Origin: Bacillota bacterium
Lineage (GTDB): Bacteria; Bacillota; Bacilli; Alicyclobacillales; SLC66
NCBI GenBank assembly: GCA_026627345.1
Contig: JAPNUP010000016.1
Location: forward strand, 1 to 35,526
Length of the DNA: 35,526 nucleotides
Reading direction: 5' to 3'
Part shown: positions 666 to 35,526 of the stretch, one piece after another
How positions within the stretch are numbered: position 1 is the stretch's first letter
Layout of the letters: the number at the start of each line of letters is the position of its first letter
Program-made: the position numbers and the translations under genes
Notes under the pieces: model-generated
Database searches by the model: none
What the model saw: the letters and a program-made list of their open reading frames with translations, nothing else
What the model was told of the DNA's origin: nothing

Positions 666-1442
666 TTACTGGATGAATTTTTGCATGTGTCCGATCGCAG
701 CTTTCTCAAGGCGCGACACCTGGGCCTGCGAAATACCGATTTCCTCGGCCACTTCCATCTGCGTCTTCCCTTCAAAAAAGCGCATCGATAATATCCGCTT
801 CTCGCGAACTGACAAGCGTCGCATCGCTTCGCGAATCGAGATCTCTTCGACCCAGGTGGTGTCTTTATTCTTTTCGTCGCTAATCTGGTCCATGACAAAT
901 ATCGGATCTCCACCATCGTGATAGATCGGCTCGAATAAGGACACTGGGTCTTGAATGGCATCGAGGGCAAAAACGACTTCTTCTTTGGGCACATCCATGC
1001 GCTTGGAAATCTCGGCAATCGTCGGTTCTCGTAAATTCTGATTGGTCAATTGATCGCGTATTTGCAGAGCTTTATAAGCGATGTCGCGCAAGGATCGACT
1101 GACGCGAATAGGGTTGTTGTCGCGCAGATAACGGCGAATCTCTCCGATAATCATTGGGACCGCATAAGTGGAAAACTTCACGTTTTGAGAGAGATCGAAG
1201 TTATCGATAGCTTTCATAAGACCGATACAACCGACTTGAAAAAGATCGTCCACGTACTCTCCGCGATTGTTAAATCGCTGGATCACGGACAGCACGAGCC
1301 GCAAGTTGCCACTCACCAGCTTCTCGCGCGACTCGACTTGTCCACTTTGAAGTTGCGTAAAAAGCTGCCTCATCTCGGCATTAGTCAGAACAGGAAGCTG
1401 AGATGTGTTGACGCCGCAGATCTCGACTTTGTTGCGCTTCAA
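666..1442 (-). CDS. sigG: RNA polymerase sigma-G factor (late forespore)
   Basis: This sigma-70 family protein directs late forespore transcription. Region 2 contains NLRLVLSVIQRFNNRGEY and VGCIGLMKAIDNFD; region 4 ends with the helix-turn-helix MEVAEEIGISQAQVSRLEKA. It is very close to B. subtilis SigG in sequence and length (258 residues). The start is placed at a TTG at 1442 because GGAGGGA lies 6-7 bases upstream and the protein then begins (M)KRNKVEICG, like the B. subtilis protein. The open frame continues upstream to an ATG at 1475, but that codon nearly coincides with the predicted transcription start of the sigma-F/G promoter. The gene follows sigE with 95 bases between, as in B. subtilis. 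Confidence 0.96.
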   Translation of the reverse strand: MKRNKVEICGVNTSQLPVLTNAEMRQLFTQLQSGQVESREKLVSGNLRLVLSVIQRFNNRGEYVDDLFQVGCIGLMKAIDNFDLSQNVKFSTYAVPMIIGEIRRYLRDNNPIRVSRSLRDIAYKALQIRDQLTNQNLREPTIAEISKRMDVPKEEVVFALDAIQDPVSLFEPIYHDGGDPIFVMDQISDEKNKDTTWVEEISIREAMRRLSVREKRILSMRFFEGKTQMEVAEEIGISQAQVSRLEKAAIGHMQKFIQ

Positions 1443-1485: not shown

Positions 1486-1513
1486 AGTATGTCCTCGGAG
1501 GAAAGAATTATGC
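1486..1513 (-). promoter_or_regulatory. Sigma-F/sigma-G type promoter of sigG
   Basis: On the minus strand GCATA (1509-1513) is followed after 14 bases by GGACATACT (1486-1494). This fits the sigma-F consensus GYATA-N14/16-GGHNANANHT except for the last base, and also the sigma-G pattern (-35 GCATA, -10 CATACTG, 17-base spacer). A transcript would start near 1478, leaving a 35-base leader to the TTG at 1442. In B. subtilis sigG is transcribed by sigma-F and then by sigma-G itself. Confidence 0.7.
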
Positions 1514-1537: not shown

Positions 1538-2263
1538 CTACAAGAGCTTGTGAAACTCTTTTTGCAATCGCTTGATAATGCGCTTTTCCAGTCGTGAAAT
1601 GTACGATTGCGAAATGCCCAGGAGGTCTGCCACGTCCTTTTGCGTCATCTCCGTCTCACCAGCCAAGCCGAAGCGCAATTCCATAATCTTGCGCTCACGC
1701 TCTGAAAGCTTGTCGAGCGCTCCGTACAACAGGTCACGATCAACCTCGTCTTCGATATCTTTGGTGATCGTGTCACTTTCCGTGCCCAGCACGTCTGATA
1801 AAAGCAGCTCGTTACCATCCCAATCGACGTTCAACGGCTCATCAAAAGAGACTTCCACACGCACTTTGTTGTTCCGTCGCAGGAACATGAGAATTTCGTT
1901 TTCGATACACCGCGAGGCATAGGTCGCCAGTTTGATCTTTTTCTCCGTATCAAAAGTGTTGACCGCTTTGATCAGTCCGATTGTCCCGATAGACACCAAA
2001 TCCTCTATGTTGATCCCTGTATTTTCAAACTTGCGAGCAATATACACGACGAGCCGAAGATTGCGTTCAATCAGCAATGCACGAACCGCTTCGTCCCCAC
2101 TCGGCAGACGGGCGAGTAGGTACTCTTCTTCCTCCCGCGTCAGCGGCGGTGGCAGGGCCTCGCTCCCGCCGACGTAGTAGATAGGGTCTGGCCCCATACG
2201 TAAAGTGAGCAACACGCGCAACACGAGTAATCTAAGAAACAGCCGTATGCGAACCGGTATCAA
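1538..2263 (-). CDS. sigE: RNA polymerase sigma-E factor precursor (mother cell)
   Basis: Pro-sigma-E controls early mother-cell transcription. The core carries [48 protein letters not shown] and the region 4 motif [18 protein letters not shown], all near-identical to B. subtilis SigE. Before the conserved YYVGG processing site is a hydrophobic and basic pro-sequence ([19 protein letters not shown]) that would hold the precursor at the membrane until SpoIIGA cleaves it. The TTG at 2263 is chosen because GGAAGGGAG lies just upstream and gives a pro-sequence of about 30 residues (27 removed in B. subtilis). This makes it overlap spoIIGA by 32 bases, which suggests translational coupling. The frame is open to 2326. 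Confidence 0.96.
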
Positions 2264-3227
2264 CAGACTCTCTCCCTTCCTCAAACGCACTTTGTGCGCT
2301 CGCAGGCAATATGCAGGTATAGGCATCAGAAGCTGTCAAGGGCGCCTGTTGCAGCGCGATCAGCAGACGGGGAACGGTGAATCCTGCGCCGTCTGGAGTT
2401 GCAGCGATCGTCACGCGATCCGGGCGCAGTGCCAACAGTTGACCGCCGCGCCCCCCCACGCCCCGGTATGGCACGATAGCGATGCGACTTTGCAGATCAC
2501 CGAAGTCCACATTGTCGTAGAGCGCCTGTAAAGGGTCGCCACCAGACTTTAGTACAGTCGCGAGACTGTCTGGCAGAAGATCCAATAGCGCCTCACCATG
2601 AACGACTGCGACAGGCATGCGCGTGATCGGGTCGATCAGCTCATTTCCTGTATCGAGCAGGGCCCGGACGGTGACGGTGTGACCAAACAGTTCGATCGCC
2701 ACGTGACAGGTGCGAGCGTGGTCGTGCTGACGCTTTTGCACTTGCGTGAATGCGAAGCGAATGATCAAAAGTCCGACCGGCAAGGCAATGACGAGTCCAA
2801 GCGTTGTGACGCTGGTCCACCAGACTACCTGTCCGTCTACTAAAGCAAGACCCGCAAACGGCGAACTCGCAGGTGCGAACAGATTATGGATAGCATACAC
2901 CGCGCCTCCCAAAGCGAAGGTCACGCCATAAAACGCTGCCACCTGACGCAGAAGTTTCAACCACTTGCGATAAGACAAGGTACGCCAAGCCCCAGTGGCA
3001 AACGCCATCTCCACCATCACCACGGAGCACAACCACTTGGCCAACAGCGTCCGCAGGAGTGCAGTGCCTGGAAACAGTGTCGCCACAGCGTAGACAGATC
3101 CCAGTGCAGCGGCCGCAAGAACACGTCGCCAGCGCCATCGTTCGCGCATCAGTGCGGCGGTGAGGATGAGGAGCGCACTATCGATCAGCAGGTTGATCAT
3201 CCCGGCAAGATCTACATAGACGACCAC
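2232..3227 (-). CDS. spoIIGA: Sporulation sigma-E processing aspartic peptidase
   Basis: SpoIIGA is the septal membrane protease that activates pro-sigma-E when the forespore sends SpoIIR. The N-terminal half (to about residue 160) is strongly hydrophobic with about five membrane spans; the C-terminal half is the protease domain, with the catalytic Asp in [17 protein letters not shown] (Asp192 from the chosen start; Asp183 in B. subtilis). The GTG at 3227 is favoured: TAGGAGG lies 9 bases upstream and the product starts [16 protein letters not shown], matching family N-termini; an upstream extension to 3311 lacks support. It overlaps sigE, forming the spoIIG operon, and is set apart from ftsZ by a terminator. 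Confidence 0.94.
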
Positions 3228-23707: not shown

Positions 23708-25333
23708 CTACCACTTCAACATCACGAGATTCTCGCTTGTCCAAGCGAACTCAGCAAGCTCCGCCACCCAATCCGTTCCGTACTTCGCGATCATCGACAA
23801 TGGCGACAAAAGACGCTCTTGCTCATGGTGGTTTGGATATAGCCAAGCCGTCAATTTCGTGTGCGCTTCAACCGTTTCCCGGTGCTTGCGGCCGAGCGCG
23901 CTTAGCGCCTTGCCCTCGAGCTTGCCGACGCTATGCGAAAGCGAGCGTTTGGTCTTATCCAGCGACTTTTGCAAAAGCGGGTCGAGTTGAAGAAAGTAGT
24001 CCGCAGATTCATCAATCAAGGCTGCAACCGCTTGTTGCAGCGATGCCACCCGCTCAGCCAATGGCGGGTTCACTTCACGGCGCAGCCAGTCTTGCAAAAG
24101 CGTCGGATCGGAAACCTGATCAAGCCCGACGCCAAACGCCTCCAGGGTCCTTGCCACCCCTGACGGCAGGTGCAAGGCACGCATCCGCAAGTACAACGGC
24201 GGCACTTTGCGTCCTGCGGCATGGAATATCGGACCCATCATCCCGTGATAGGCGACTTCCGCCGCGCCTCCCACATAGGCAAGCACGGGTAAGAGAACAT
24301 CTTGTGTGACAGGCCGATAGAGCACCCCTCCTGAAAAGTCCTGAGGACGCTCTTGTAGGCGAGATTGTAAGGACGAGCGAGACAATGATTCGTTACTGTC
24401 CCTCACAACGAGCGTCTGCGGCTGATCGCTAAGGTCAAGTGCGGAACGCGTCTGACCATGAATCAAGTACAGCAGCGTATGCTTATCATGAAACTCCACT
24501 TGCGGTGTATAGCCTTTGGCGCGAACCTGTTGCGCTCCTTCGCGAGCGGCCTGGACAAATCGCTCGGGTTGCTCCAAGACACTTGAAAATGCGGGACGCA
24601 TGAGCGCGCGCAGATCCGGGCGCAGTGGATTCACATATAACATCGGTGTACCTTGTAGCCAGATGCCGAGCAGCGCAGCAAAGCCGTCAGCCATATTCCC
24701 CGTCTCGCGATATGCACGAGACACCGCCTCAATCACATCTTCGCGGTACAGACCGTCAGGCAGATCAGCCGAGAGTTCTTGGATCAAACGATCCAGGTCC
24801 CGGTCACTGATCACGTGCTGACCGACTGGCGTGCGTAGCGCTGGTCGGTCTTTGATCACCGCGCGTCCAAGATTCCCATGACGCGTGACATAATATGCAG
24901 ATGCCGCCTCATCAAAGTCGTGATCTTCAGCGGCAATCCAAAACACCGGCACGACTGGGCGAGACAACACGCGCTCGAGTCGCTTGGCTAAAGAGACCGT
25001 GGAAATGGCCTTGTATACCGTGTAAGAGGGCCCTGTGAAAAGACCGGCTTGCTGCCCTGTGACCACCGTCAGACAGCCGGGTTGGGCAAGTTTCTGTAAT
25101 AAAGGCTCCGCTGTTTCCAGTGTGCCGATCTCACCCGCATACGCGCGCAGCGCCTCTACAAGTAGCGGACGCTGCGTTTCATCATACAGGCCATCCACGT
25201 CACTCGCGCGCCGTACAGCAAAGCGGTCATCACGCGTGTCGTAATCGTACAAGGACAGTGCTTCACTGTTGCCGTCTAAACAAGCGTCAGTCAACGCGTT
25301 ACCAGTGGGTTGAACGCGACAGTCTATATCCAT
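23708..25333 (-). CDS. bshC: Bacillithiol biosynthesis cysteine-adding enzyme BshC
   Basis: Putative cysteine ligase of the last step of bacillithiol synthesis (Cys joined to GlcN-malate). 541 residues, full length. Diagnostic stretches are VVTGQQAGLFTGPSYTVYKA, VPVFWIAAEDHDFDEA, LLPVLAYVGGAAEVAYHG and IFHAAGRKVPPLYLR; the C-terminal part (about 425-490) is a helical coiled coil. The ATG at 25333 follows CGGGAG after 11 bases. It lies directly upstream of mraZ, as yllA (bshC) does in B. subtilis, and 34 bases after namA, so the two redox genes probably form one unit. Confidence 0.96.
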   Translation of the reverse strand: MDIDCRVQPTGNALTDACLDGNSEALSLYDYDTRDDRFAVRRASDVDGLYDETQRPLLVEALRAYAGEIGTLETAEPLLQKLAQPGCLTVVTGQQAGLFTGPSYTVYKAISTVSLAKRLERVLSRPVVPVFWIAAEDHDFDEAASAYYVTRHGNLGRAVIKDRPALRTPVGQHVISDRDLDRLIQELSADLPDGLYREDVIEAVSRAYRETGNMADGFAALLGIWLQGTPMLYVNPLRPDLRALMRPAFSSVLEQPERFVQAAREGAQQVRAKGYTPQVEFHDKHTLLYLIHGQTRSALDLSDQPQTLVVRDSNESLSRSSLQSRLQERPQDFSGGVLYRPVTQDVLLPVLAYVGGAAEVAYHGMMGPIFHAAGRKVPPLYLRMRALHLPSGVARTLEAFGVGLDQVSDPTLLQDWLRREVNPPLAERVASLQQAVAALIDESADYFLQLDPLLQKSLDKTKRSLSHSVGKLEGKALSALGRKHRETVEAHTKLTAWLYPNHHEQERLLSPLSMIAKYGTDWVAELAEFAWTSENLVMLKW

Positions 25334-26486: not shown

Positions 26487-26750
26487 TCAAGCGTGTCTTG
26501 TGCTTTTAGACACAATGTCCGCCGCATGTGTCAGTTCTCGGAGCACGTCGACTTTCCACTGATCCGCAAACAGTCTCGCTTTAATGTAGGCTTCGCCTGT
26601 CTGGCGTGAACTGTACTGGGGCGGCAGACGATTAAGCGCAATCGCCAATATGTCATTTTGGCAAACTTCGCACATGCAGCCGGTATAACCGTCTTCGAAT
26701 ATATCTTGAAGCGCGTTGCGAGCTATTTCCTCCATTACGTTGACCACCAT
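26487..26750 (-). CDS. Late competence development ComFB family protein
   Basis: A small cytoplasmic protein of 87 residues: NVMEEIARNALQDIF, then GCMCEVCQNDILAIALNRLPPQY with cysteines 25, 27 and 30, then GEAYIKARLF. This is the ComFB (PF10719) pattern. In B. subtilis comFB sits in the comF operon but is dispensable for competence; I recall recent work proposing some ComFB proteins as cyclic dinucleotide receptors, which cannot be judged here. The ATG at 26750 follows AAAGGAGAG by seven bases; an upstream ATG at 26786 overlaps the promoter. No comF gene is nearby. It is divergent from the ATPase-like gene. Confidence 0.85.
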   Translation of the reverse strand: MVVNVMEEIARNALQDIFEDGYTGCMCEVCQNDILAIALNRLPPQYSSRQTGEAYIKARLFADQWKVDVLRELTHAADIVSKSTRHA

Positions 26751-26784
26751 GGAAGATCTCTCCTTTAAGGTATATATCGCGTCC

Positions 26785-26812
26785 ATTGTATCACGGGTTC
26801 TTTGGGTATACT
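26785..26812. promoter_or_regulatory. Back-to-back promoter region
   Basis: In the 91-base gap between two divergent genes, the minus strand has TGATACAAT (26785-26793), an extended -10 element leaving a leader of about 28 bases to the ComFB-like ATG. The plus strand has TATACT (26807-26812), with a transcript start near 26819 and GGAGGGAAGACG before the ATG at 26842. Neither has a clear -35. The two -10 regions lie close enough for the promoters to interfere. Confidence 0.5.
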
Positions 26813-26841
26813 ACCAGACACACTGACTCGGAGGGAAGACG

Positions 26842-28155
26842 ATGGCGGCTGACTACTGTAAGAAGCGTCTGCGTATCCACATGCCAGGCCTTCTGGACGA
26901 AAACTTGCAAACCCTCACGCGGAGTCTATTGTCGATGGTTCGCGGCGTACACACGGTAACGCTCAGTCCCATTTCCCAGCGCGTGCTGATTATCTACGAC
27001 GATCGTCTGGTTGAAGCTGGACAACTGACAGCGCTCACTGGACACTTGTGCGAACGTCAGCATGCGCTCACTCCTGCTACTACCTACACGCAAAACCGTG
27101 CGAAGACTGTGGTGGCACTCCCATTGCTGCTTCTCACCGCGACAGGGCTGCGGCGCCTCGTTTTCGGTCGCTCGCCAGCGACGCAAAGCATCGTGCTCTT
27201 CGAAGTCGCTACAGCCCTCTCCGTATTTAGCGGCTACCCGCAACTGCGCTCGCGCGTTCGCGCGTTGGCCCGCCGGCTACACATCAGCGACGATGCGCTG
27301 CTAACGAGTGCCGCACTCGTACTGGCAGTACTTCGCGAATCGCCGCTTGTATTTCTCAGCCTCTTTACACTGAGCTACAGCGCCTTCAAAAAACGCGATA
27401 ACGTCATAGCGGCAGCAGCACGCGCAGGGGAATCTGTGGCCGATCTCACTTCAGAAAACCTGGAACCTACTCCGGTTGCCCGCTATGGACAGTACAGTGG
27501 ACGTGTAGGGGCCGTAATTGCCGTACTGACCGCCTTCATGCGACAAGATCCTTTGCAAGCCTCCGCTGTGCTACTCGCAGCCAACCCGCGGCCAGCCGTC
27601 GTCGGCGCGCGGTATACTTTGAATTACGGCGAAATTCTCACGCATGAAGAGTGTGCCTATATACCACTGCACACTGGGATGGATCTCTATGAACTGGCCG
27701 ATGCACAAGAAGTGGTATGTCTGCACGCGCGTAGCGATCGCTTTCAGACCCCCGCTGCACACGGGCTGTATGTGCACAGTCACCATATTCGCGAATTCAC
27801 TGAAGCTCCACCTGCACAGGGGAAAAAACGCAACTGTGAGCGCCCTTTGCGGCGTGTCGTACTGTTAGACGCCACCGTCGAGATGCCTGCGTGCCATCAA
27901 CGACAAGGAGACACGCTTTATCTACGCGGCGATATGGCCGCCTTATTACGCACACGCGCGCTCAGCCAATCTCTACGTACACACATCAAATTCACAACCC
28001 AACTCACGGCGGTGTTTAACCTCATAGCCGTGACAGCGGTGATCGCCCTAAAACAGACCCGCACGATCAACGTGGCCTCGGATCTCTTCACGCTTTTGGT
28101 GCTCGCCTTGCCAAACCAACTACGACGACAAGCGAATCTCACTTTACGGGCATGA
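26842..28155 (+). CDS. HMA-domain pseudo-P-type ATPase lacking catalytic domains
   Basis: 437 residues, no frame break. Residues about 8-70 look like an HMA_2-type domain without the CxxC metal site (RLRIHMPGLL; RVLIIYDDRLVEAGQL). Membrane segments follow at about 88-108, 114-132 and 151-180. Where a P1B ATPase has its actuator domain (TGES) there are only some 35 residues (183-218). The next span ends SAVLLAANPRPAVVGARYTL: NPRP (248-251) stands in for the metal-binding CPC. Then MDLYELADAQEVVCLHARSD (280-299) parallels RALEELARVDTVVFDKTGTL, but the phosphorylated Asp is gone. The nucleotide and hinge domains are reduced to about 60 residues. The end (RGDMAALLRTRALSQSLRTH, then two spans) is that of a normal metal ATPase. 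It cannot pump by the known cycle; a scaffold, sensor or channel role is open. Its neighbours resemble ATPase partner proteins. Confidence 0.75.
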   Translation: MAADYCKKRLRIHMPGLLDENLQTLTRSLLSMVRGVHTVTLSPISQRVLIIYDDRLVEAGQLTALTGHLCERQHALTPATTYTQNRAKTVVALPLLLLTATGLRRLVFGRSPATQSIVLFEVATALSVFSGYPQLRSRVRALARRLHISDDALLTSAALVLAVLRESPLVFLSLFTLSYSAFKKRDNVIAAAARAGESVADLTSENLEPTPVARYGQYSGRVGAVIAVLTAFMRQDPLQASAVLLAANPRPAVVGARYTLNYGEILTHEECAYIPLHTGMDLYELADAQEVVCLHARSDRFQTPAAHGLYVHSHHIREFTEAPPAQGKKRNCERPLRRVVLLDATVEMPACHQRQGDTLYLRGDMAALLRTRALSQSLRTHIKFTTQLTAVFNLIAVTAVIALKQTRTINVASDLFTLLVLALPNQLRRQANLTLRA

Positions 28156-28156
28156 A

Positions 28157-28183
28157 AAAGGGCAGCTCGATTGGCTGCCCTTT
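28157..28183. terminator. Bidirectional terminator
   Basis: AAAGGGCAGC (28157-28166) and GCTGCCCTTT (28174-28183) form a perfect 10-bp stem with a 7-base loop between two convergent genes. On the minus strand it is followed by a T-run of five (counting stem T's) and serves the gene ending at 28195; on the plus strand the T-run is only three. Confidence 0.85.
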
Positions 28184-28194
28184 GCGTGGGGTTA

Positions 28195-28887
28195 TCAGCG
28201 TTCAGACTCAGGCTGAATATCTGACATCACCGTTTCCAGCAACTCTTGATATTCTGGCTTCAGTCCTGCCCCCACTTCTTCCACAGCATCTGCAAATTGG
28301 GCCAGCGCCTCCGGGTTGCGAACTGCGAGATCGCCCGGCACATGGCGCCCCGTGTGTGGATGAGCTTGCGTACTGCTTAGTGGTTTCGGCATCAAATGCT
28401 CAGGTAACACCTTTTGCTCAGGCACATTTTCAGTAGCAGCCGATTCCACCGCCTGCCACGACGCGCCTTCAGACAGGGTAGGCGCCTGTGCATCTGAGCC
28501 ACCTATGGCCCCAGTCTCCATTTGCACAGCGGAGCGCCCACGAAAGAAGGTTCGGCGCGCGCCTTCTGAAACATTGTCTGCCACACCCAGGGTGCTGGCC
28601 AGCCCACCAACCACTGTTTTGCGCAGCCAAGATTCTCCGCTTCCTTGTTGCTCGTGCTGCCGCCACTGTTCGCGCTTATCTGATGCATCGGCCAAAATGG
28701 CTTTTGATTCCTCTGTTACACGTCCTCCGACATCAGCAAGACGGTCGCCTAGTTTCAAAACCCCTACTGCTGCACTGACTGTCGCTGCCCGCAAGGCTCT
28801 GCGTACTGGCGGGATCGCCAACACACCTACGACGCCAAGCGCAATCCACGCTGCCGGATTGTCCCTAAAGGGTCGTCCGAATGCCAC
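28195..28887 (-). CDS. Membrane-anchored protein with PacL/DUF5132-like module and His-rich tail
   Basis: No firm family assignment. 230 residues. One membrane span (about 12-26) is followed by PPVRRALRAATVSAAVGVLK and ends a conserved-looking helix with EESKAILADA (59-68). This 44-residue stretch aligns without gaps to the next gene's product (13 identities counted by eye). Small proteins with a span, a PVRR-like turn and an Ala-rich helix ending in (V/I)xADA are known partners of P-type ATPases (DUF1490/PacL, DUF5132, DUF6110); similarity is by memory, not by search. The remaining 160 residues are polar and low-complexity, with HPHTGRH at 176-182, a possible metal ligand group. GTG start at 28887 after AAGGGGA. 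Convergent with the ATPase-like gene. Confidence 0.6.
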   Translation of the reverse strand: MAFGRPFRDNPAAWIALGVVGVLAIPPVRRALRAATVSAAVGVLKLGDRLADVGGRVTEESKAILADASDKREQWRQHEQQGSGESWLRKTVVGGLASTLGVADNVSEGARRTFFRGRSAVQMETGAIGGSDAQAPTLSEGASWQAVESAATENVPEQKVLPEHLMPKPLSSTQAHPHTGRHVPGDLAVRNPEALAQFADAVEEVGAGLKPEYQELLETVMSDIQPESER

Positions 28888-29007
28888 CGTTCACCGTCCC
28901 CTTTCCTGCGTACCACTGTCTTTACTTGGTATAGAATGCCCTGACAAACGTCATCGCATGCGAACCTGACGCGTGGCGCATCCTAGTGGTAAAGGGGGTA
29001 GCGGACT

Positions 29008-29256
29008 ATGGACGCGACTAAACTGCAAGGAGTGGCTGTCGTTGCTGCCATCTCCGTCATCGCCTGGTTAACGGCGCCCGCCGTCCGACGCAACTATAGA
29101 CACGTGACAAAAACGGTGGGAGAAGGACTCTCAAACACATGGCGCCAAGGCCGTAGGTGGGTAGAAATTGGACGCGAAGAGATCGCAGATATCGTAGCGG
29201 ACGCTCAACTCGAGCGTATGCGCCGAGCGATCGACCGTGAGCTTGCAGACTCCTAA
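29008..29256 (+). CDS. Small membrane protein with PacL/DUF5132-like module
   Basis: 82 residues: one membrane span (about 8-23), APAVRRNYRHVT, a basic amphipathic stretch (NTWRQGRRWVEIGR) and EEIADIVADA at 57-66, then a short charged tail. The positions of the P-x-VRR turn and the EE...ADA end are the same distance apart (32 residues) as in the neighbouring 230-residue protein, so the two are probably paralogues, one with a long extra tail. ATG at 29008 follows AAAGGGGGT. It is divergent from its paralogue across a 120-base gap in which no clear promoter pair was found. Confidence 0.65.
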   Translation: MDATKLQGVAVVAAISVIAWLTAPAVRRNYRHVTKTVGEGLSNTWRQGRRWVEIGREEIADIVADAQLERMRRAIDRELADS

Positions 29257-29264
29257 CCGGGTAA

Positions 29265-29309
29265 GGCAAAGGCGATGGGCATTGTGAGCCATCGCCTTTG
29301 CCCGCTTTT
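29265..29309 (+). terminator. Strong hairpin terminator between convergent genes
   Basis: GGCAAAGGCGATGG (29265-29278) and CCATCGCCTTTGCC (29289-29302) form a perfect 14-bp stem followed on the plus strand by CGCTTTT. It serves the small membrane protein gene; on the minus strand there is no T-run, though the stem would also face transcripts from the carboxyltransferase gene. Confidence 0.85.
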
Positions 29310-31678: not shown

Positions 31679-32589
31679 GAGCAGGCTCCTTTCTCTGTTG
31701 CAAGCACTTGGCTCATGCGGCTGTTGAGCGGTTTGCCGAGTTCTCGCGACAAATGTTGTCCCGCCTCGCCGAGCAAGACTTCATCGATGCCGGTGTGTAC
31801 TTGGCAGCCGTGTAACAAGTGTACCAAGTCATCCGTCGCCACATTGCCCGCCGCTCCTGGCGCATATGGGCAGCCGCCCAGACCGCCTAGTGAACTGTCA
31901 AAACGCGTAATCCCCATCTCGAGCCCCGTCAGGATGTTGGCCAGCGCTGCGCCGCGCGTATCATGCATGTGCAAAGCGAGCCGGTCGGCGGGTACATCGC
32001 GCAGCAGTACTTCGAGTACGGCCTCTGTCTGACGTGGACTGGCCACCCCGATCGTATCGCCGAGCGCGATTTCATCGACGCCTCCTGCAAGCAAGGTCAG
32101 CGCGATACGGCGCACTGTCGATACGTCTACAGCCCCTTCGTAGGGGCAGCCAAAGACAGTGGATATATAACCGCGTACGCGCATCCCACTGGCGCGCGCC
32201 TGTTTCGCGACTTCTGTGAGAAGCGGTAGCGTCTGTTCGATCGATTTATTGATGTTGCGTTGGTTGTGCGTCTCACTAGCTGACATAAAGACGGCTGCTA
32301 CGTCTATGCGCGCAGCGATGGCCCGTTCCAACCCGCGCAGGTTTGGCACCAAAGCTGCGTAAGTCACTCCTGCGTCGCGCGGCAGCGCAGCACAGACCTC
32401 ATCGGCGTCGGCCAGACGCGGGATCCACTGCGGACTCACAAAACTGCTGGCTTCGATATGCTTGACTCCCGCCGCCACCAAATCCTGAATGAATGCAATC
32501 TTTTGCTCGGCGCAAAGCGTAACCGCCTCATTTTGCAAGCCATCGCGAGGACCGACTTCCCACAGTGTGACGCGATCCGGCCAGCGCAT
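31675..32589 (-). CDS. yngG: Hydroxymethylglutaryl-CoA lyase (YngG type)
   Basis: Cleaves HMG-CoA to acetoacetate and acetyl-CoA, the last step of leucine degradation. TIM-barrel motifs: VTLWEVGPRDGLQNE (metal-binding Asp), HIEASSFVSPQWIPRLAD, ALHMHDTRGAALANI (metal-binding His pair) and the flexible loop GGLGGCPYAPGAAGN with the catalytic Cys. The ATG at 32589 starts one base after the carrier-protein stop, with TGGAGC in that gene's end as ribosome site; 304 residues, like other bacterial lyases. The longer frame to 32646 overlaps the carrier gene and is rejected. Confidence 0.95.
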   Translation of the reverse strand: MRWPDRVTLWEVGPRDGLQNEAVTLCAEQKIAFIQDLVAAGVKHIEASSFVSPQWIPRLADADEVCAALPRDAGVTYAALVPNLRGLERAIAARIDVAAVFMSASETHNQRNINKSIEQTLPLLTEVAKQARASGMRVRGYISTVFGCPYEGAVDVSTVRRIALTLLAGGVDEIALGDTIGVASPRQTEAVLEVLLRDVPADRLALHMHDTRGAALANILTGLEMGITRFDSSLGGLGGCPYAPGAAGNVATDDLVHLLHGCQVHTGIDEVLLGEAGQHLSRELGKPLNSRMSQVLATEKGACS

Positions 32590-32590
32590 C

Positions 32591-32803
32591 TTACGCGAGC
32601 TCCACAACGACATCGCCATCATTGACGAAGTCGCCTTCTTGCACAAGAATGCGAGTCACAGTCCCGCCCACTTCCGCGGTCACAGGAACCTCCATCTTCA
32701 TCGATTCGAGAATCACTGTGTCGTCCCCGACAGATACCACTTGACCTACTTGTACCAAAATCTTATACACAGTACCTGCCATATTCGATGCAATCGCTGC
32801 CAT
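32591..32803 (-). CDS. yngHB: Biotin/lipoyl attachment carrier protein (YngHB type)
   Basis: A standalone biotinyl domain of 70 residues: NMAGTVYKILVQVGQVV, then ESMKMEVPV with the biotinylated Lys36, then GGTVTRILVQEGDFVNDGDV. It carries carboxybiotin between the biotin carboxylase upstream and the carboxyltransferase downstream. Start ATG at 32803 after AGGAGG. Separate short carriers of this kind are typical of the yng operon. Confidence 0.95.
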   Translation of the reverse strand: MAAIASNMAGTVYKILVQVGQVVSVGDDTVILESMKMEVPVTAEVGGTVTRILVQEGDFVNDGDVVVELA

Positions 32804-32848
32804 ATCGTGTCAGCCTCCTGATATGATGAATGGTTACCACAGCCCATC

Positions 32849-34192
32849 TTATGAAGATGCCTGCGCTTGCAGTGCTGCGATGAAGCCGGTGTGGGTCTGC
32901 CCTTGCACAAAAGCTTGACTGTTCATAATCGTGATCAAAAGCGGCAGATTGGTCTTGACCCCTGACACCACATAGCCTTCTAGGGCTTCGAGCATCTTGC
33001 GCCGCGCCTCGTCTCGCGTCTTACCGTAGACAATCAACTTTGCAAACATCGGATCATAATAAGGCGTAATCACGTCTCCTGCTTGCACGCCGATTTCGTG
33101 CCGAATACCGTCGCCCACCGGCAATTCAAGCGCTGAGATCGTGCCTGGACTCGGTAAGAAGCGAACCGGGTCCTCGGCGCAGAGGCGACACTCTATGGCA
33201 TGACCGCGCACCCGCGCGTTCATCACATCATCACTGAGCGCTTCTCCTTGCGCGATGCGCAGTTGCCACTGCACAATGTCAACAGAGGTCACCTCTTCTG
33301 TGATCGGATGCTCGACTTGTAGCCGGGTGTTCATCTCCAGAAAGTAAAATTCCTTGCCGCTGGCGATAAACTCAACTGTACCGGCCCCAACGTAGCCAAG
33401 CGTACTGGCCAGCCGCACCGCAGCTTGCCCCATAGCGGTGCGTGTCTCCTCATTAAGCCCAGGCGAAGGGGCTTCCTCGACTACCTTTTGGTGGCGGCGC
33501 TGAATACTGCATTCGCGCTCCCCCAAGGATGCCACATGCCCATGCTGATCTGCCAAAATCTGAATTTCAATGTGCCTTGGATTTTCTATGTACTTCTCAA
33601 CATACATCGTACTGTCGCCAAAGTATGCTGCGACGCGTTTCGATGAAGTCACGAAGGCTTGTTCGAGTTCGCCGTCATCTTTGGCCACCGTCATGCCGAT
33701 CCCACCGCCACCAGCGGACGCCTTTAGCATGACAGGATACCCGATGGACTGTGCGACGGCAACCGCATCTGACACAGTGGCCACAGCCCCAACAGACCCT
33801 GGTACAATAGGTACGCCTGCGGCTTTTGCAAACGCGCGCGCCTCTACTTTGCTACCCATCTGCCGGATCGCTTCAGGCGTAGGTCCGATGAAAGTCAACC
33901 CCGCTTCGACGCATAGGCGCGCGAATTCCGCGTTTTCAGACAGCAGGCCGTAGCCTGGATGAATCGCGTCTGCCCCGGCCTCTTTGGCTGCCTGAACGAT
34001 CGATGCCGCTTGCAAATAGCTCTGCGCCACAGGCGGTGGACCGATACGGACTGCCTGGTCCGCTTCTTGGACATAGAGCGCGCCTGCGTCGGCGTCACTA
34101 TAGATCGCAACAGTGCCCATGCCCATCTGACGGCAGGCCCGCAAGATACGGCGCGCGATCTCGCCGCGATTAGCCACCAAAACAGTCTTCAT
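32849..34192 (-). CDS. yngH: Acetyl/acyl-CoA carboxylase biotin carboxylase subunit (YngH type)
   Basis: ATP-dependent carboxylation of the biotin carrier. 447 residues: VLVANRGEIARRILRA, DAIHPGYGLLSENAEFA, the glycine-rich ATP loop KASAGGGGIGMTVA, HIEIQILADQHGHVASLGER (metal/bicarbonate site), SIQRRHQKVVEEAPSP and FLEMNTRLQVEHPITE. Start ATG at 34192, seven bases after AGGGGG. The AccC paralogue for fatty acid synthesis is expected elsewhere; gene context argues for the catabolic acyl-CoA carboxylase. Only 11 bases separate it from the lipoprotein gene upstream. Confidence 0.94.
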   Translation of the reverse strand: MKTVLVANRGEIARRILRACRQMGMGTVAIYSDADAGALYVQEADQAVRIGPPPVAQSYLQAASIVQAAKEAGADAIHPGYGLLSENAEFARLCVEAGLTFIGPTPEAIRQMGSKVEARAFAKAAGVPIVPGSVGAVATVSDAVAVAQSIGYPVMLKASAGGGGIGMTVAKDDGELEQAFVTSSKRVAAYFGDSTMYVEKYIENPRHIEIQILADQHGHVASLGERECSIQRRHQKVVEEAPSPGLNEETRTAMGQAAVRLASTLGYVGAGTVEFIASGKEFYFLEMNTRLQVEHPITEEVTSVDIVQWQLRIAQGEALSDDVMNARVRGHAIECRLCAEDPVRFLPSPGTISALELPVGDGIRHEIGVQAGDVITPYYDPMFAKLIVYGKTRDEARRKMLEALEGYVVSGVKTNLPLLITIMNSQAFVQGQTHTGFIAALQAQASS

Positions 34193-34203
34193 CCAGCTTC
34201 CCC

Positions 34204-34641
34204 CTAGCTCACAGTGAAATTCGTCTGCATCTTGTCATGGCCAGCACCGCAATAGACGTTGCACGCGAGCGTGTAAGTCCCTTTGGCTGGAGGGGTCCAG
34301 TAAATCACCTGCGGCGTTTGGGCTGCCCCTACCGCTTCTGAAACGTTTGTACCGGCAATCGAAAAACCGTGAATCCCGTCTTTTGATCGCACTTCAAACT
34401 TGACTGCCTCGCCCATTTTCAAGTGCAGATTACTCATCGTCCAGTGCCAATCTTGCGCTGTCACCTGCACGAGTTGATAAGGGCCTTTCGGCGGAGCACT
34501 TTGTGCCACCTGGTCCGAAGCGCAACCGGACAAAAGCCCCGTCACTGTGAGCGCCGAAACCCAACCAAACGTTCGTTCGAAAGATCGATAGCCATGCCGA
34601 GCAATCAGATTGTGTCTCCTCCTTTTACAAGGTATACGCAT
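34204..34641 (-). CDS. CuA-domain (COX2-like) cupredoxin lipoprotein
   Basis: 145 residues. A signal sequence ends in the lipobox LSGC (37-40), so the mature protein is an outer-leaflet lipoprotein. The rest is a single cupredoxin domain like the extracytoplasmic part of cytochrome oxidase subunit II: DWHWTM, SKDGIHGFSI with His91, and CNVYCGAGHDKM giving Cys127, Cys131, His135 and Met138. All side-chain ligands of a binuclear CuA site are present, but there are no COX2 membrane helices and no oxidase genes nearby. It could be an electron carrier or copper donor. The ATG at 34641 lacks a ribosome site, while AAGGAGGAG lies inside the frame just before CTG (34608) and ATT (34605), so a rare start is possible. 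Confidence 0.85.
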   Translation of the reverse strand: MRIPCKRRRHNLIARHGYRSFERTFGWVSALTVTGLLSGCASDQVAQSAPPKGPYQLVQVTAQDWHWTMSNLHLKMGEAVKFEVRSKDGIHGFSIAGTNVSEAVGAAQTPQVIYWTPPAKGTYTLACNVYCGAGHDKMQTNFTVS

Positions 34642-34659
34642 CCACTATGCTATCATCAC

Positions 34660-34685
34660 AGAATAACGGCGTAGCCGTTTATTCT
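34660..34685. repeat. Palindromic repeat, copy 1
   Basis: AGAATAACGGC (34660-34670), GTA, GCCGTTTATTCT (34674-34685): an imperfect palindrome with one bulged base. Related copies lie at 34728-34756 and 30875-30901. No T-run of terminator type follows on either strand. Confidence 0.75.
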
Positions 34686-34691
34686 TCCCGT

Positions 34692-34724
34692 AGACGGTGG
34701 TGCGACAGCACCATGTCACCGTCT
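34692..34724. repeat. Two-part hairpin between palindrome copies
   Basis: AGACGGT (34692-34698) pairs with ACCGTCT (34718-34724), and inside it GGTGC (34699-34703) pairs with GCACC (34708-34712) across GACA, leaving ATGTC as a one-sided bulge. It sits midway between two copies of the AATAACGGC palindrome, so the gap could fold as three hairpins in a row. I see no gene in 34642-34811. Confidence 0.55.
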
Positions 34725-34727
34725 CTC

Positions 34728-34756
34728 CAGAATAACGGCGTTAGCCGCTTATTCTG
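34728..34756. repeat. Palindromic repeat, copy 2
   Basis: CAGAATAACGGC (34728-34739), GTTA, GCCGCTTATTCTG (34744-34756): the same palindrome as copy 1 with one base added in the loop and C for T in the right arm. Differences in the two arms partly keep pairing, which is expected of a mobile or structural palindrome rather than a chance repeat. Confidence 0.75.
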
Positions 34757-34811
34757 AGTGTATGAGAACGGTCATCTGACATATGTAAGAAGACAAGCAC
34801 CACTTGGGCCA

Positions 34812-35526
34812 TCAGGCGTCACGAACGCATCGAAATCCGATGTTTCCCGTGGAACTTTCCGGCGTATTGGACGATCGCGCAGCCACGCGGTAGCGGTTGC
34901 AATAAGACTTGTGACAGAGATACGAGCCGCCACGTGTGACTTTGGCTGTACCGCGATGCGGACCTTTCGGATTACGATGAGTACTTTTCAGATGATAGTC
35001 CGCACTAAACCAATCTTCACACCATTCCCATACATTCCCGCAGACGTTGTAAAGCCCATACCCATTGGGCGCATAAGCATCTGCCGGGGCGGTGCCGAAG
35101 TATCCGTCTGAGCCATGGTTGACATCAGGGAACTTGCCTTGCCAGATGTTACACATGTGTTTGCCGTCTGGGTGAAGTTCATCCCCCCAGGCAAAGCGTT
35201 TTTGGACCAGTCCTCCGCGCGCGGCGCACTCCCATTCTGCCTCCGTAGGGAGACGTTTGCCGGCCCATGCTGCATAGGCTTTGGCATCGTGCCAGGAAAT
35301 GTGCACGACCGGGTGCGTCTCTCGGCCCGTGAGATCCGAATCCGGCCCTTCCGGATGTGCAAAATCGGCACCTTCGACCAACCACCACCACGGGGTATGT
35401 TGCACCACCTGCTGCACGGTTTGCGCAGTCTTCGGTGATACAAACTGTCCGAAAACAAAGGAAGCGCCAAACCGTCCCGCCTCCGTCTGGTAGCCCGTGG
35501 CTTTTACAAAAGCGAGAAACTGCGCA
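34812..35526 (-). CDS. Formylglycine-generating enzyme (sulfatase-modifying factor), N-terminus cut off
   Basis: The frame is open to the window edge, so at least 237 codons are seen and the start lies outside. It is close to true FGE: FVKATGYQTEAGRFGASFVF, PWWWLVEGADFAHPEGPDS, HPVVHISWHDAKAYAAWAGK, RLPTEAEWECAARGG, IWQGKFPDVNHGSDGYFGTA, NGYGLYNVCGNVWEW, and RGGSYLCHKSYCNRYRVAAR. The last holds the two catalytic cysteines five residues apart (336 and 341 in human SUMF1), which bind Cu(I). The enzyme oxidises a Cys in CxPxR motifs to formylglycine, activating sulfatases. No sulfatase is in view, so the client lies elsewhere. It ends 170 bases before the CuA lipoprotein gene, on the same strand. 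Confidence 0.95.
   Translation of the reverse strand, partial: AQFLAFVKATGYQTEAGRFGASFVFGQFVSPKTAQTVQQVVQHTPWWWLVEGADFAHPEGPDSDLTGRETHPVVHISWHDAKAYAAWAGKRLPTEAEWECAARGGLVQKRFAWGDELHPDGKHMCNIWQGKFPDVNHGSDGYFGTAPADAYAPNGYGLYNVCGNVWEWCEDWFSADYHLKSTHRNPKGPHRGTAKVTRGGSYLCHKSYCNRYRVAARSSNTPESSTGNIGFRCVRDA

Follow-up and report, generated by a model that had tools for sequence, protein, structure and literature searches.

A degenerate P-type ATPase and two related single-span membrane proteins form a conserved gene module in Sulfoacidibacillus, Ferroacidibacillus and relatives: a candidate scaffold or regulator of the forespore membrane

By architecture, the closest described counterparts of the system considered here are the tandem P-type ATPases of family FUPA24 (TC 3.A.3.24), among them the mycobacterial CtpH and CtpI, which are about twice the normal length and confine their catalytic motifs to the C-terminal half (PMC3573892). 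Large tandem ATPases of the CtpH/CtpI type are called uncharacterised, with function unknown, in a 2023 review (PMC10654040). Another point of comparison is PacL1 (DUF1490), which forms effluxosome platforms together with CtpC (PMC9374683, PMC13043812); contact between PacL molecules requires a GxxG motif in the transmembrane (TM) helix (PMC13043812). Proteins of the DUF6110 family lie beside P1B6 ATPases (PMC9374683). Our literature search returned no paper on DUF5132, and none on inactive or pseudo P-type ATPases.

The DNA analysed here (the window) is a stretch of 35,526 nucleotides from a 2.76-Mb draft genome of a Bacillota bacterium (GTDB lineage Alicyclobacillales, SLC66). Related genomes include those of Sulfoacidibacillus thermotolerans, Ferroacidibacillus organovorans and metagenome-assembled genomes recorded only as Bacillota. 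The module consists of three genes. The pseudo-ATPase gene (26842-28155, plus strand, 437 aa) adjoins a gene on the minus strand for a 230-aa single-span membrane protein with a GTG start (28195-28887; "long"), which is followed by a plus-strand gene for an 82-aa single-span membrane protein with an ATG start (29008-29256; "short"). Both small frames are where a first-pass annotation of the window, made from its letters alone, had placed them.

Homologues of the pseudo-ATPase are present in 13 of the 18 genomes of the family, each time with long and short beside it, and the arrangement is constant, with long in reverse between a forward pseudo-ATPase and a forward short. The first-pass annotation had looked to two things for support, a conserved three-gene neighbourhood and profile matches of the small proteins to families with domains of unknown function; the former is found in all 13 genomes, and no such family scores above its cut-off (see below).

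The pseudo-ATPase and the tandem pumps of Bacilli

The pseudo-ATPase begins with an HMA_2-like domain (residues 6-73), followed by a P1B-type membrane core in which NPR replaces CPC (residues 248-250) and a truncated P domain missing the phosphorylated Asp; the last two TM helices are retained, and both the A domain and the N domain are absent. DKTGT, TGE, GDGxND and CPC do not occur anywhere in the family alignment, where the aligned stretch is degenerate. The protein thus has none of the motifs expected of a catalytically competent P-type ATPase, namely DKTGT, TGE of the A domain, and GDGxND, and its earlier description as a dead pump with an HMA_2-like domain holds.

The AlphaFold model of the pseudo-ATPase has a pTM of 0.81. 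Foldseek alone gave no PDB match to it with E below 0.001. In a VIA-align search, residues 79-437 matched P1B ATPases best, with CopA (7r0g, Z 12.9) and a cadmium-translocating ATPase (7qbz, Z 12.4) at the top and 284-290 residues aligned, and residues 6-72 matched HMA metallochaperone folds. The predicted structure is therefore of the P1B type, an HMA domain joined to a P1B membrane core. The model shares these two elements with heavy-metal ATPases such as CopA and ZntA; it differs from them in lacking the four motifs named above as well as the A and N domains. At the level of sequence profiles, the window protein scores 16.7 bits against HMA_2 (PF19991; gathering score 30), and 10 of the 13 orthologues have likewise sub-threshold matches to this family. 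The HMA domain has no CxxC. Separately, Cys6, His268 and Cys271 (codons at 26857-26859, 27643-27645 and 27652-27654) show no variation among the 13 family members, in contrast to the Bacilli tandem ATPases, and might represent a new set of ligands.

Searched against the sister family and other Bacilli, the family profile of the pseudo-ATPase matches the N-terminal part of open reading frames of 1,400-1,660 aa. In Pfam terms, these tandem proteins open with HMA_2, which passes the threshold here (47 and 41 bits); a degenerate P1B half lacking DKTGT and TGE comes next, and this is followed by a complete P2-type ATPase. P1B P and N domains can be aligned to the degenerate half, in which an EDTSLL-like stretch replaces FDKTGTL; the pseudo halves of Bacilli share P-domain homology with the P1B heavy-metal ATPases. 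In some genomes the two halves are split within one cluster, a free-standing pseudo half of 616-678 aa standing beside an HMA_2-P2A ATPase of about 1,040 aa. The catalytic halves and their relatives retain the P2A ion-site residues PEGL, GNLAE and N-x-LTD-x-x-P. An alignment-based scan of the genome contigs gave named relatives, where a single-sequence scan gave no match; the plasmid collection contained only ordinary P1B and P2A pumps, with no tandem ATPase reaching 80% coverage of the query.

As judged from these alignments and from gene order, the locus is a Bacilli tandem-pump system that has been stripped down, the catalytic half being gone from the locus and three genes kept; this stripped form is found in Sulfoacidibacillus, Ferroacidibacillus and relatives. 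The three-part system proposed by the first-pass annotation accordingly keeps its dead pump and its neighbourhood; the descent from tandem HMA_2-pseudoATPase-P2A proteins, the catalytic relative that eight of the 13 genomes encode at another site and the forespore-type promoters of the small genes (both discussed below) had escaped it. The ancestor would resemble FUPA24 in architecture, a likeness drawn from the described layout of CtpH and CtpI and not from sequence. A size of about 1,500 aa with the catalytic motifs in the C-terminal part is found in the Bacilli homologues, whose N-terminal half is homologous to the window protein, and not in the 437-aa pseudo-ATPase itself. The latter corresponds to the N-terminal part only, is shortened further by the loss of the N domain, and has no catalytic half. 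The N-terminal half of a tandem pump can thus exist as a separate gene, and there is a natural lineage that has kept this half and its partners while dropping the pump half from the locus. The hosts of the dead-pump version are acid-loving iron oxidisers, and the giant-pump version occurs in many spore-forming bacteria.

Two related single-span partners

Long consists of a TM helix, a P-x-VRR turn, a low-confidence linker, and a conserved C-terminal peptide (FAV-N ... VGA-x-KPEY). In short, a TM helix is followed by a proline plus basic patch and a helix of the EExxDIVADA type. P-x-VRR starts at residue 26 in long and at residue 24 in short, and EExxxIxADA at residues 59 and 57, so that the two motifs are 33 positions apart in both proteins, with 32 residues between them, exactly as first noticed; the 13 identities in the best 44-residue ungapped window were also reproduced. 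For the two window sequences alone this likeness exceeds chance only modestly (p about 0.016 in shuffles, and about 0.024 when the TM block is kept), values that would still allow it to be ascribed to coincidence or to the common composition of membrane proteins. Such an explanation becomes highly improbable when profiles built from 13 orthologues of each protein are compared, since hhalign aligns them over 56 ungapped columns with a score of 48.6 (probability 94.4, E 9e-8) whereas none of 150 column-shuffled controls scored above 27.4, and since the single partner of HMA_2-P2A ATPases (see below) bridges the two. Their kinship is therefore real, and long and short are, by profile comparison, related proteins.

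Across the family, only long preserves VRR exactly; short retains the proline and basic patch, followed by EE-x-x-D-(I/V)-V-A-(E/D)-A. The AlphaFold model of long (pLDDT 58 overall and 77-82 at the C-terminal helices; pTM 0.24) is too poor for a structure search.

Genes homologous to both proteins accompany the tandem pumps. In the usual Bacilli arrangement, the pump gene is followed directly by a short-type gene of the same strand and preceded closely by a long-type gene in divergent orientation. Both flank the pump gene at 29 of 33 loci outside the family, including a rearranged one in genome G187; the remaining four comprise one cut by a contig end, one with the short type only, and two with neither partner. 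Each of the two genomes with a partnerless tandem ATPase has a further copy, beside which at least one partner gene lies. The 33 include 19 loci left out of profile building, of which 18 carry both. In profile comparisons short matches the Bacilli downstream gene over 82 columns (hhalign probability 99.3, E 1e-20), and long matches the divergent upstream gene (probability 93.5, E 2e-7). Profiles made from the Bacilli neighbours only found 29008-29256 (51 bits) and 28195-28887 (24.6 bits) as their top matches in the window. Two small membrane partners can now be assigned to tandem pumps across Bacilli that are built in a similar way to CtpH and CtpI.

The first-pass annotation had compared both proteins with PacL1, DUF5132 and DUF6110. 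Membership in these families was not borne out, all profile scores being below the curated cut-offs. For DUF1490 (PF07371), long scores 13.5 bits (cut-off 28.4), and one member of each of the long and short alignments matches, with E of 0.017 and 0.076. For DUF6110 (PF19605), the best relative reaches 14.7 bits (gathering score 26), and one of the 13 short proteins matches at E 0.054. The suggestion of DUF5132 (PF17195) fared better, in that the resemblance is real: this is the Pfam family matched most often, by 5 of 13 short proteins and 7 of 11 Bacilli orthologues, all below threshold, the best score being 24.7 bits in a Bacilli orthologue (gathering score 25), and the window short itself having no match. 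Whole-genome Pfam searches for DUF5132 and DUF6110 gave no match anywhere, controls included, and are uninformative. DUF6110 had also brought to mind the ferrosome, with its P1B6 fez clusters, which we rejected because the catalytic relatives are P2A-like proteins with PEGL and not P1B6 ATPases.

The module may nevertheless work somewhat like PacL-CtpC, an analogy based on gene order and predicted layout. As with PacL1, a small single-span protein is encoded beside a P-type ATPase gene, and it consists of a TM helix, an acidic and alanine-rich helix, and a disordered tail. The differences are that there are two distinct partners and not one, that the partner pump is catalytically dead, that the orthologue alignment has no conserved C-terminal His/Asp metal motif, and that GxxG is not conserved: it occurs in the window long (G18-G21) and not consistently in its orthologues, and is absent from the window short. 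The module here is, moreover, from Bacilli, whereas DUF1490 has been reported only from Actinobacteria. The HPHTGRH stretch of long (residues 176-182, window 28342-28362), earlier proposed to bind metal, is internal and not C-terminal; the family alignment of long has no counterpart of it in the orthologues, and on this ground we rejected it as a metal site.

Promoters and terminators of the module

The intergenic region between long and short contains two elements similar to promoters recognised by sigmaF or sigmaG, arranged back to back. That of long (28932-28961, minus strand) reads GCATG-N18-CATTCTA, with GG upstream of the -10, and that of short (28956-28985, plus strand) reads GCATG-N18-CATCCTA. 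The conserved GCATGC is common to both, and the -10 elements lie about 18 bp away on each side. We searched with the patterns GHATR-N17/18-CANNHTA or GYWTR-N14/16-GGNNA, set from consensus sequences after the motif had been seen. The sigmaF pattern is found upstream of long in all 13 genomes and upstream of 7 of 164 other genes of the same loci, 13 loci of shared ancestry for which p-values overstate independence; the strict pattern is found upstream of short in 5 of 13 orthologues. The strict sigmaG pattern has two matches in the whole window, both in this intergenic region. In other Bacilli the enrichment is only moderate (7 of 27 and 9 of 27; p 0.02 and 0.002).

A -10-like element, GGGTATACTA (26804-26813, plus strand), lies 28 bp upstream of the pseudo-ATPase gene. 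Elements of this type, with the family consensus GGGCATACTA, are present at 12 of 13 loci, as compared to 0.18 expected from their density in the loci. No clear -35 was seen upstream of the pseudo-ATPase, nor were sigmaE, sigmaK or sigmaA patterns, and the consensus promoter scan found no sigma-70 promoter. The match to a forespore promoter pattern is thus complete in front of long in every genome, strict in a minority for short, and represented by the -10 only for the pseudo-ATPase.

The sigG gene itself (TIGR02850, 498 bits) is at the left end of the window (672-1433, minus strand), and is present in all 18 family genomes, in 17 of them above the family cut-off. The same pattern scan also recovers the sigG promoter (1486-1513, minus strand), in which the spacing is 14 nt, as for sigG of B. 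subtilis; this spacing is reported to be conserved in spore-forming Bacilli (PMC5942855). A second sigma factor gene beside sigG (1538-2326, minus strand; TIGR02850 sub-threshold) is probably sigE. Since the promoters recognised by sigmaF and by sigmaG are much alike (PMC3789822), we do not choose between the two. The motifs strongly suggest that sigmaF or sigmaG directs forespore transcription of both small genes from a common -35 palindrome, and that the -10 of the pseudo-ATPase gene is of a forespore-like kind.

Between the convergent 3' ends of the pseudo-ATPase and long there is a perfect inverted repeat with an 11-bp stem (28157-28183; RNA fold -17.4 kcal/mol), which a terminator scan that needs a T run did not report. 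Another, with a 14-bp stem (29265-29302; RNA fold -26.4 kcal/mol), follows short, towards an acyl-CoA carboxylase gene. Both repeats are probable bidirectional terminators.

Possible function and the separate HMA_2-P2A ATPase

The best explanation of the whole, to which we assign a probability of roughly 0.6, is that the dead pump and its two partners form a scaffold or regulator module of the forespore membrane, presumably one concerned with cation handling. The module would consist of a catalytically dead HMA-bearing P-type ATPase with two dedicated single-span proteins. Its genes descend from a Bacilli system in which the pseudo-ATPase is joined to a working-type P2A cation ATPase, in one polypeptide or as a neighbouring gene, with the two small genes flanking. 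Long and short may pack against the membrane helices of the pseudo-ATPase through their TM and charged helices, and may cluster or stabilise it, by analogy with PacL1 and CtpC; that the three proteins interact is suggested by their gene neighbourhood only. Without turning over ATP, the complex could serve the membrane of the developing spore as a scaffold, a regulator or a cation-sensing subunit, and where the separate HMA_2-P2A ATPase or another P2A pump is present it would probably do so in trans with that pump. The forespore-type promoters offer a concrete physiological setting, that of spore cation handling, and the lineage separates a scaffold or regulatory role from transport, which makes this role testable.

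A wider proposal, which we regard as tentative, is that many Bacilli use a forespore-specific pump complex, tandem or split and made of an HMA_2 pseudo-pump, a P2A pump and two partners, to handle a divalent cation during spore formation (Ca2+ and Mn2+ are candidates), and that in relatives of Sulfoacidibacillus and Ferroacidibacillus the pseudo-pump and partners became a stand-alone, non-catalytic scaffold or cation sensor of the spore membrane. To our knowledge, the route of Ca2+ into the developing spore is still not settled, and our literature search found no paper joining the forespore with P-type ATPases, calcium and dipicolinate.

Eight of the 13 genomes with the module, this one included, also encode a separate HMA_2-P2A ATPase of about 1,000-1,070 aa at another site; here it is a 999-aa kin of the catalytic half (contig C176 of genome G000, 32370-35366; locus L115, 8367-11366, minus strand); none of the five family genomes without the module has it. 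In at least four relatives this pump has a single-span partner of its own (A6), encoded by the next gene downstream; A6 combines features of long and short. The module could then be an obligate regulatory subunit of this pump, the two polypeptides making up a split tandem cation pump that works in trans, much as the pseudo half and the catalytic HMA_2-P2A gene occupy the same cluster in other Bacilli. We hold this to be possible but doubtful: the five module genomes without the pump, four of which are 92-98% complete, indicate that a dedicated pump partner is not universal, the strict forespore pattern is not seen upstream of the HMA_2-P2A gene, and kinship and completeness confound the co-occurrence (hand-calculated p about 0.03).

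Less probable is a vegetative metal-resistance platform, in which a PacL-like complex would efflux or sequester the metals of acidic mine water with HPHTGRH or the invariant Cys6, His268 and Cys271 as ligands. The hosts do oxidise iron in metal-rich acid (PMC11123200), and the distant resemblance to DUF1490, DUF5132 and DUF6110, the HMA_2-like domain and the three family-specific residues are in keeping with it. However, HPHTGRH is not conserved, the HMA domain is without CxxC and the ion-binding CPC has become NPR, the promoters are of the forespore type and not vegetative or metal-responsive, and the locus has no ATPase for efflux.

All three genes are under purifying selection, with dN/dS of 0.05-0.10 in one close pair of genomes and 0.08-0.19 in another, so none of them is decaying; we therefore reject the idea, very improbable also in view of intact reading frames in 13 genomes, new family-specific invariant residues and conserved promoter elements, that the module is a remnant of a tandem-pump locus which lost its catalytic half and is itself being lost, even though the A, N and catalytic domains are gone and the proteins of one genus are shorter. 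In that genus (g4, genomes G006 and G007; L025 13924-14307 and L026 10316-10678), long is only 120-127 aa in length and the pseudo-ATPase 365-376 aa, so that parts of both proteins are dispensable.

Upstream of the module are genes for a ComFB-family protein (26487-26786, minus strand) and for BshC of bacillithiol synthesis (23708-25333, minus strand), with no evident functional link to it. Beside the Bacilli tandem ATPases, a fourth small gene recurs, which codes for a glycine-zipper protein (S-LWAG-I-GG ... Q-D); it is found at L110 16305-16679, L119 11512-11862, L121 10590-10907, L062 3362-3838, L060 13696-14124 and L059 13380-13754, the last of which matches PF13488.
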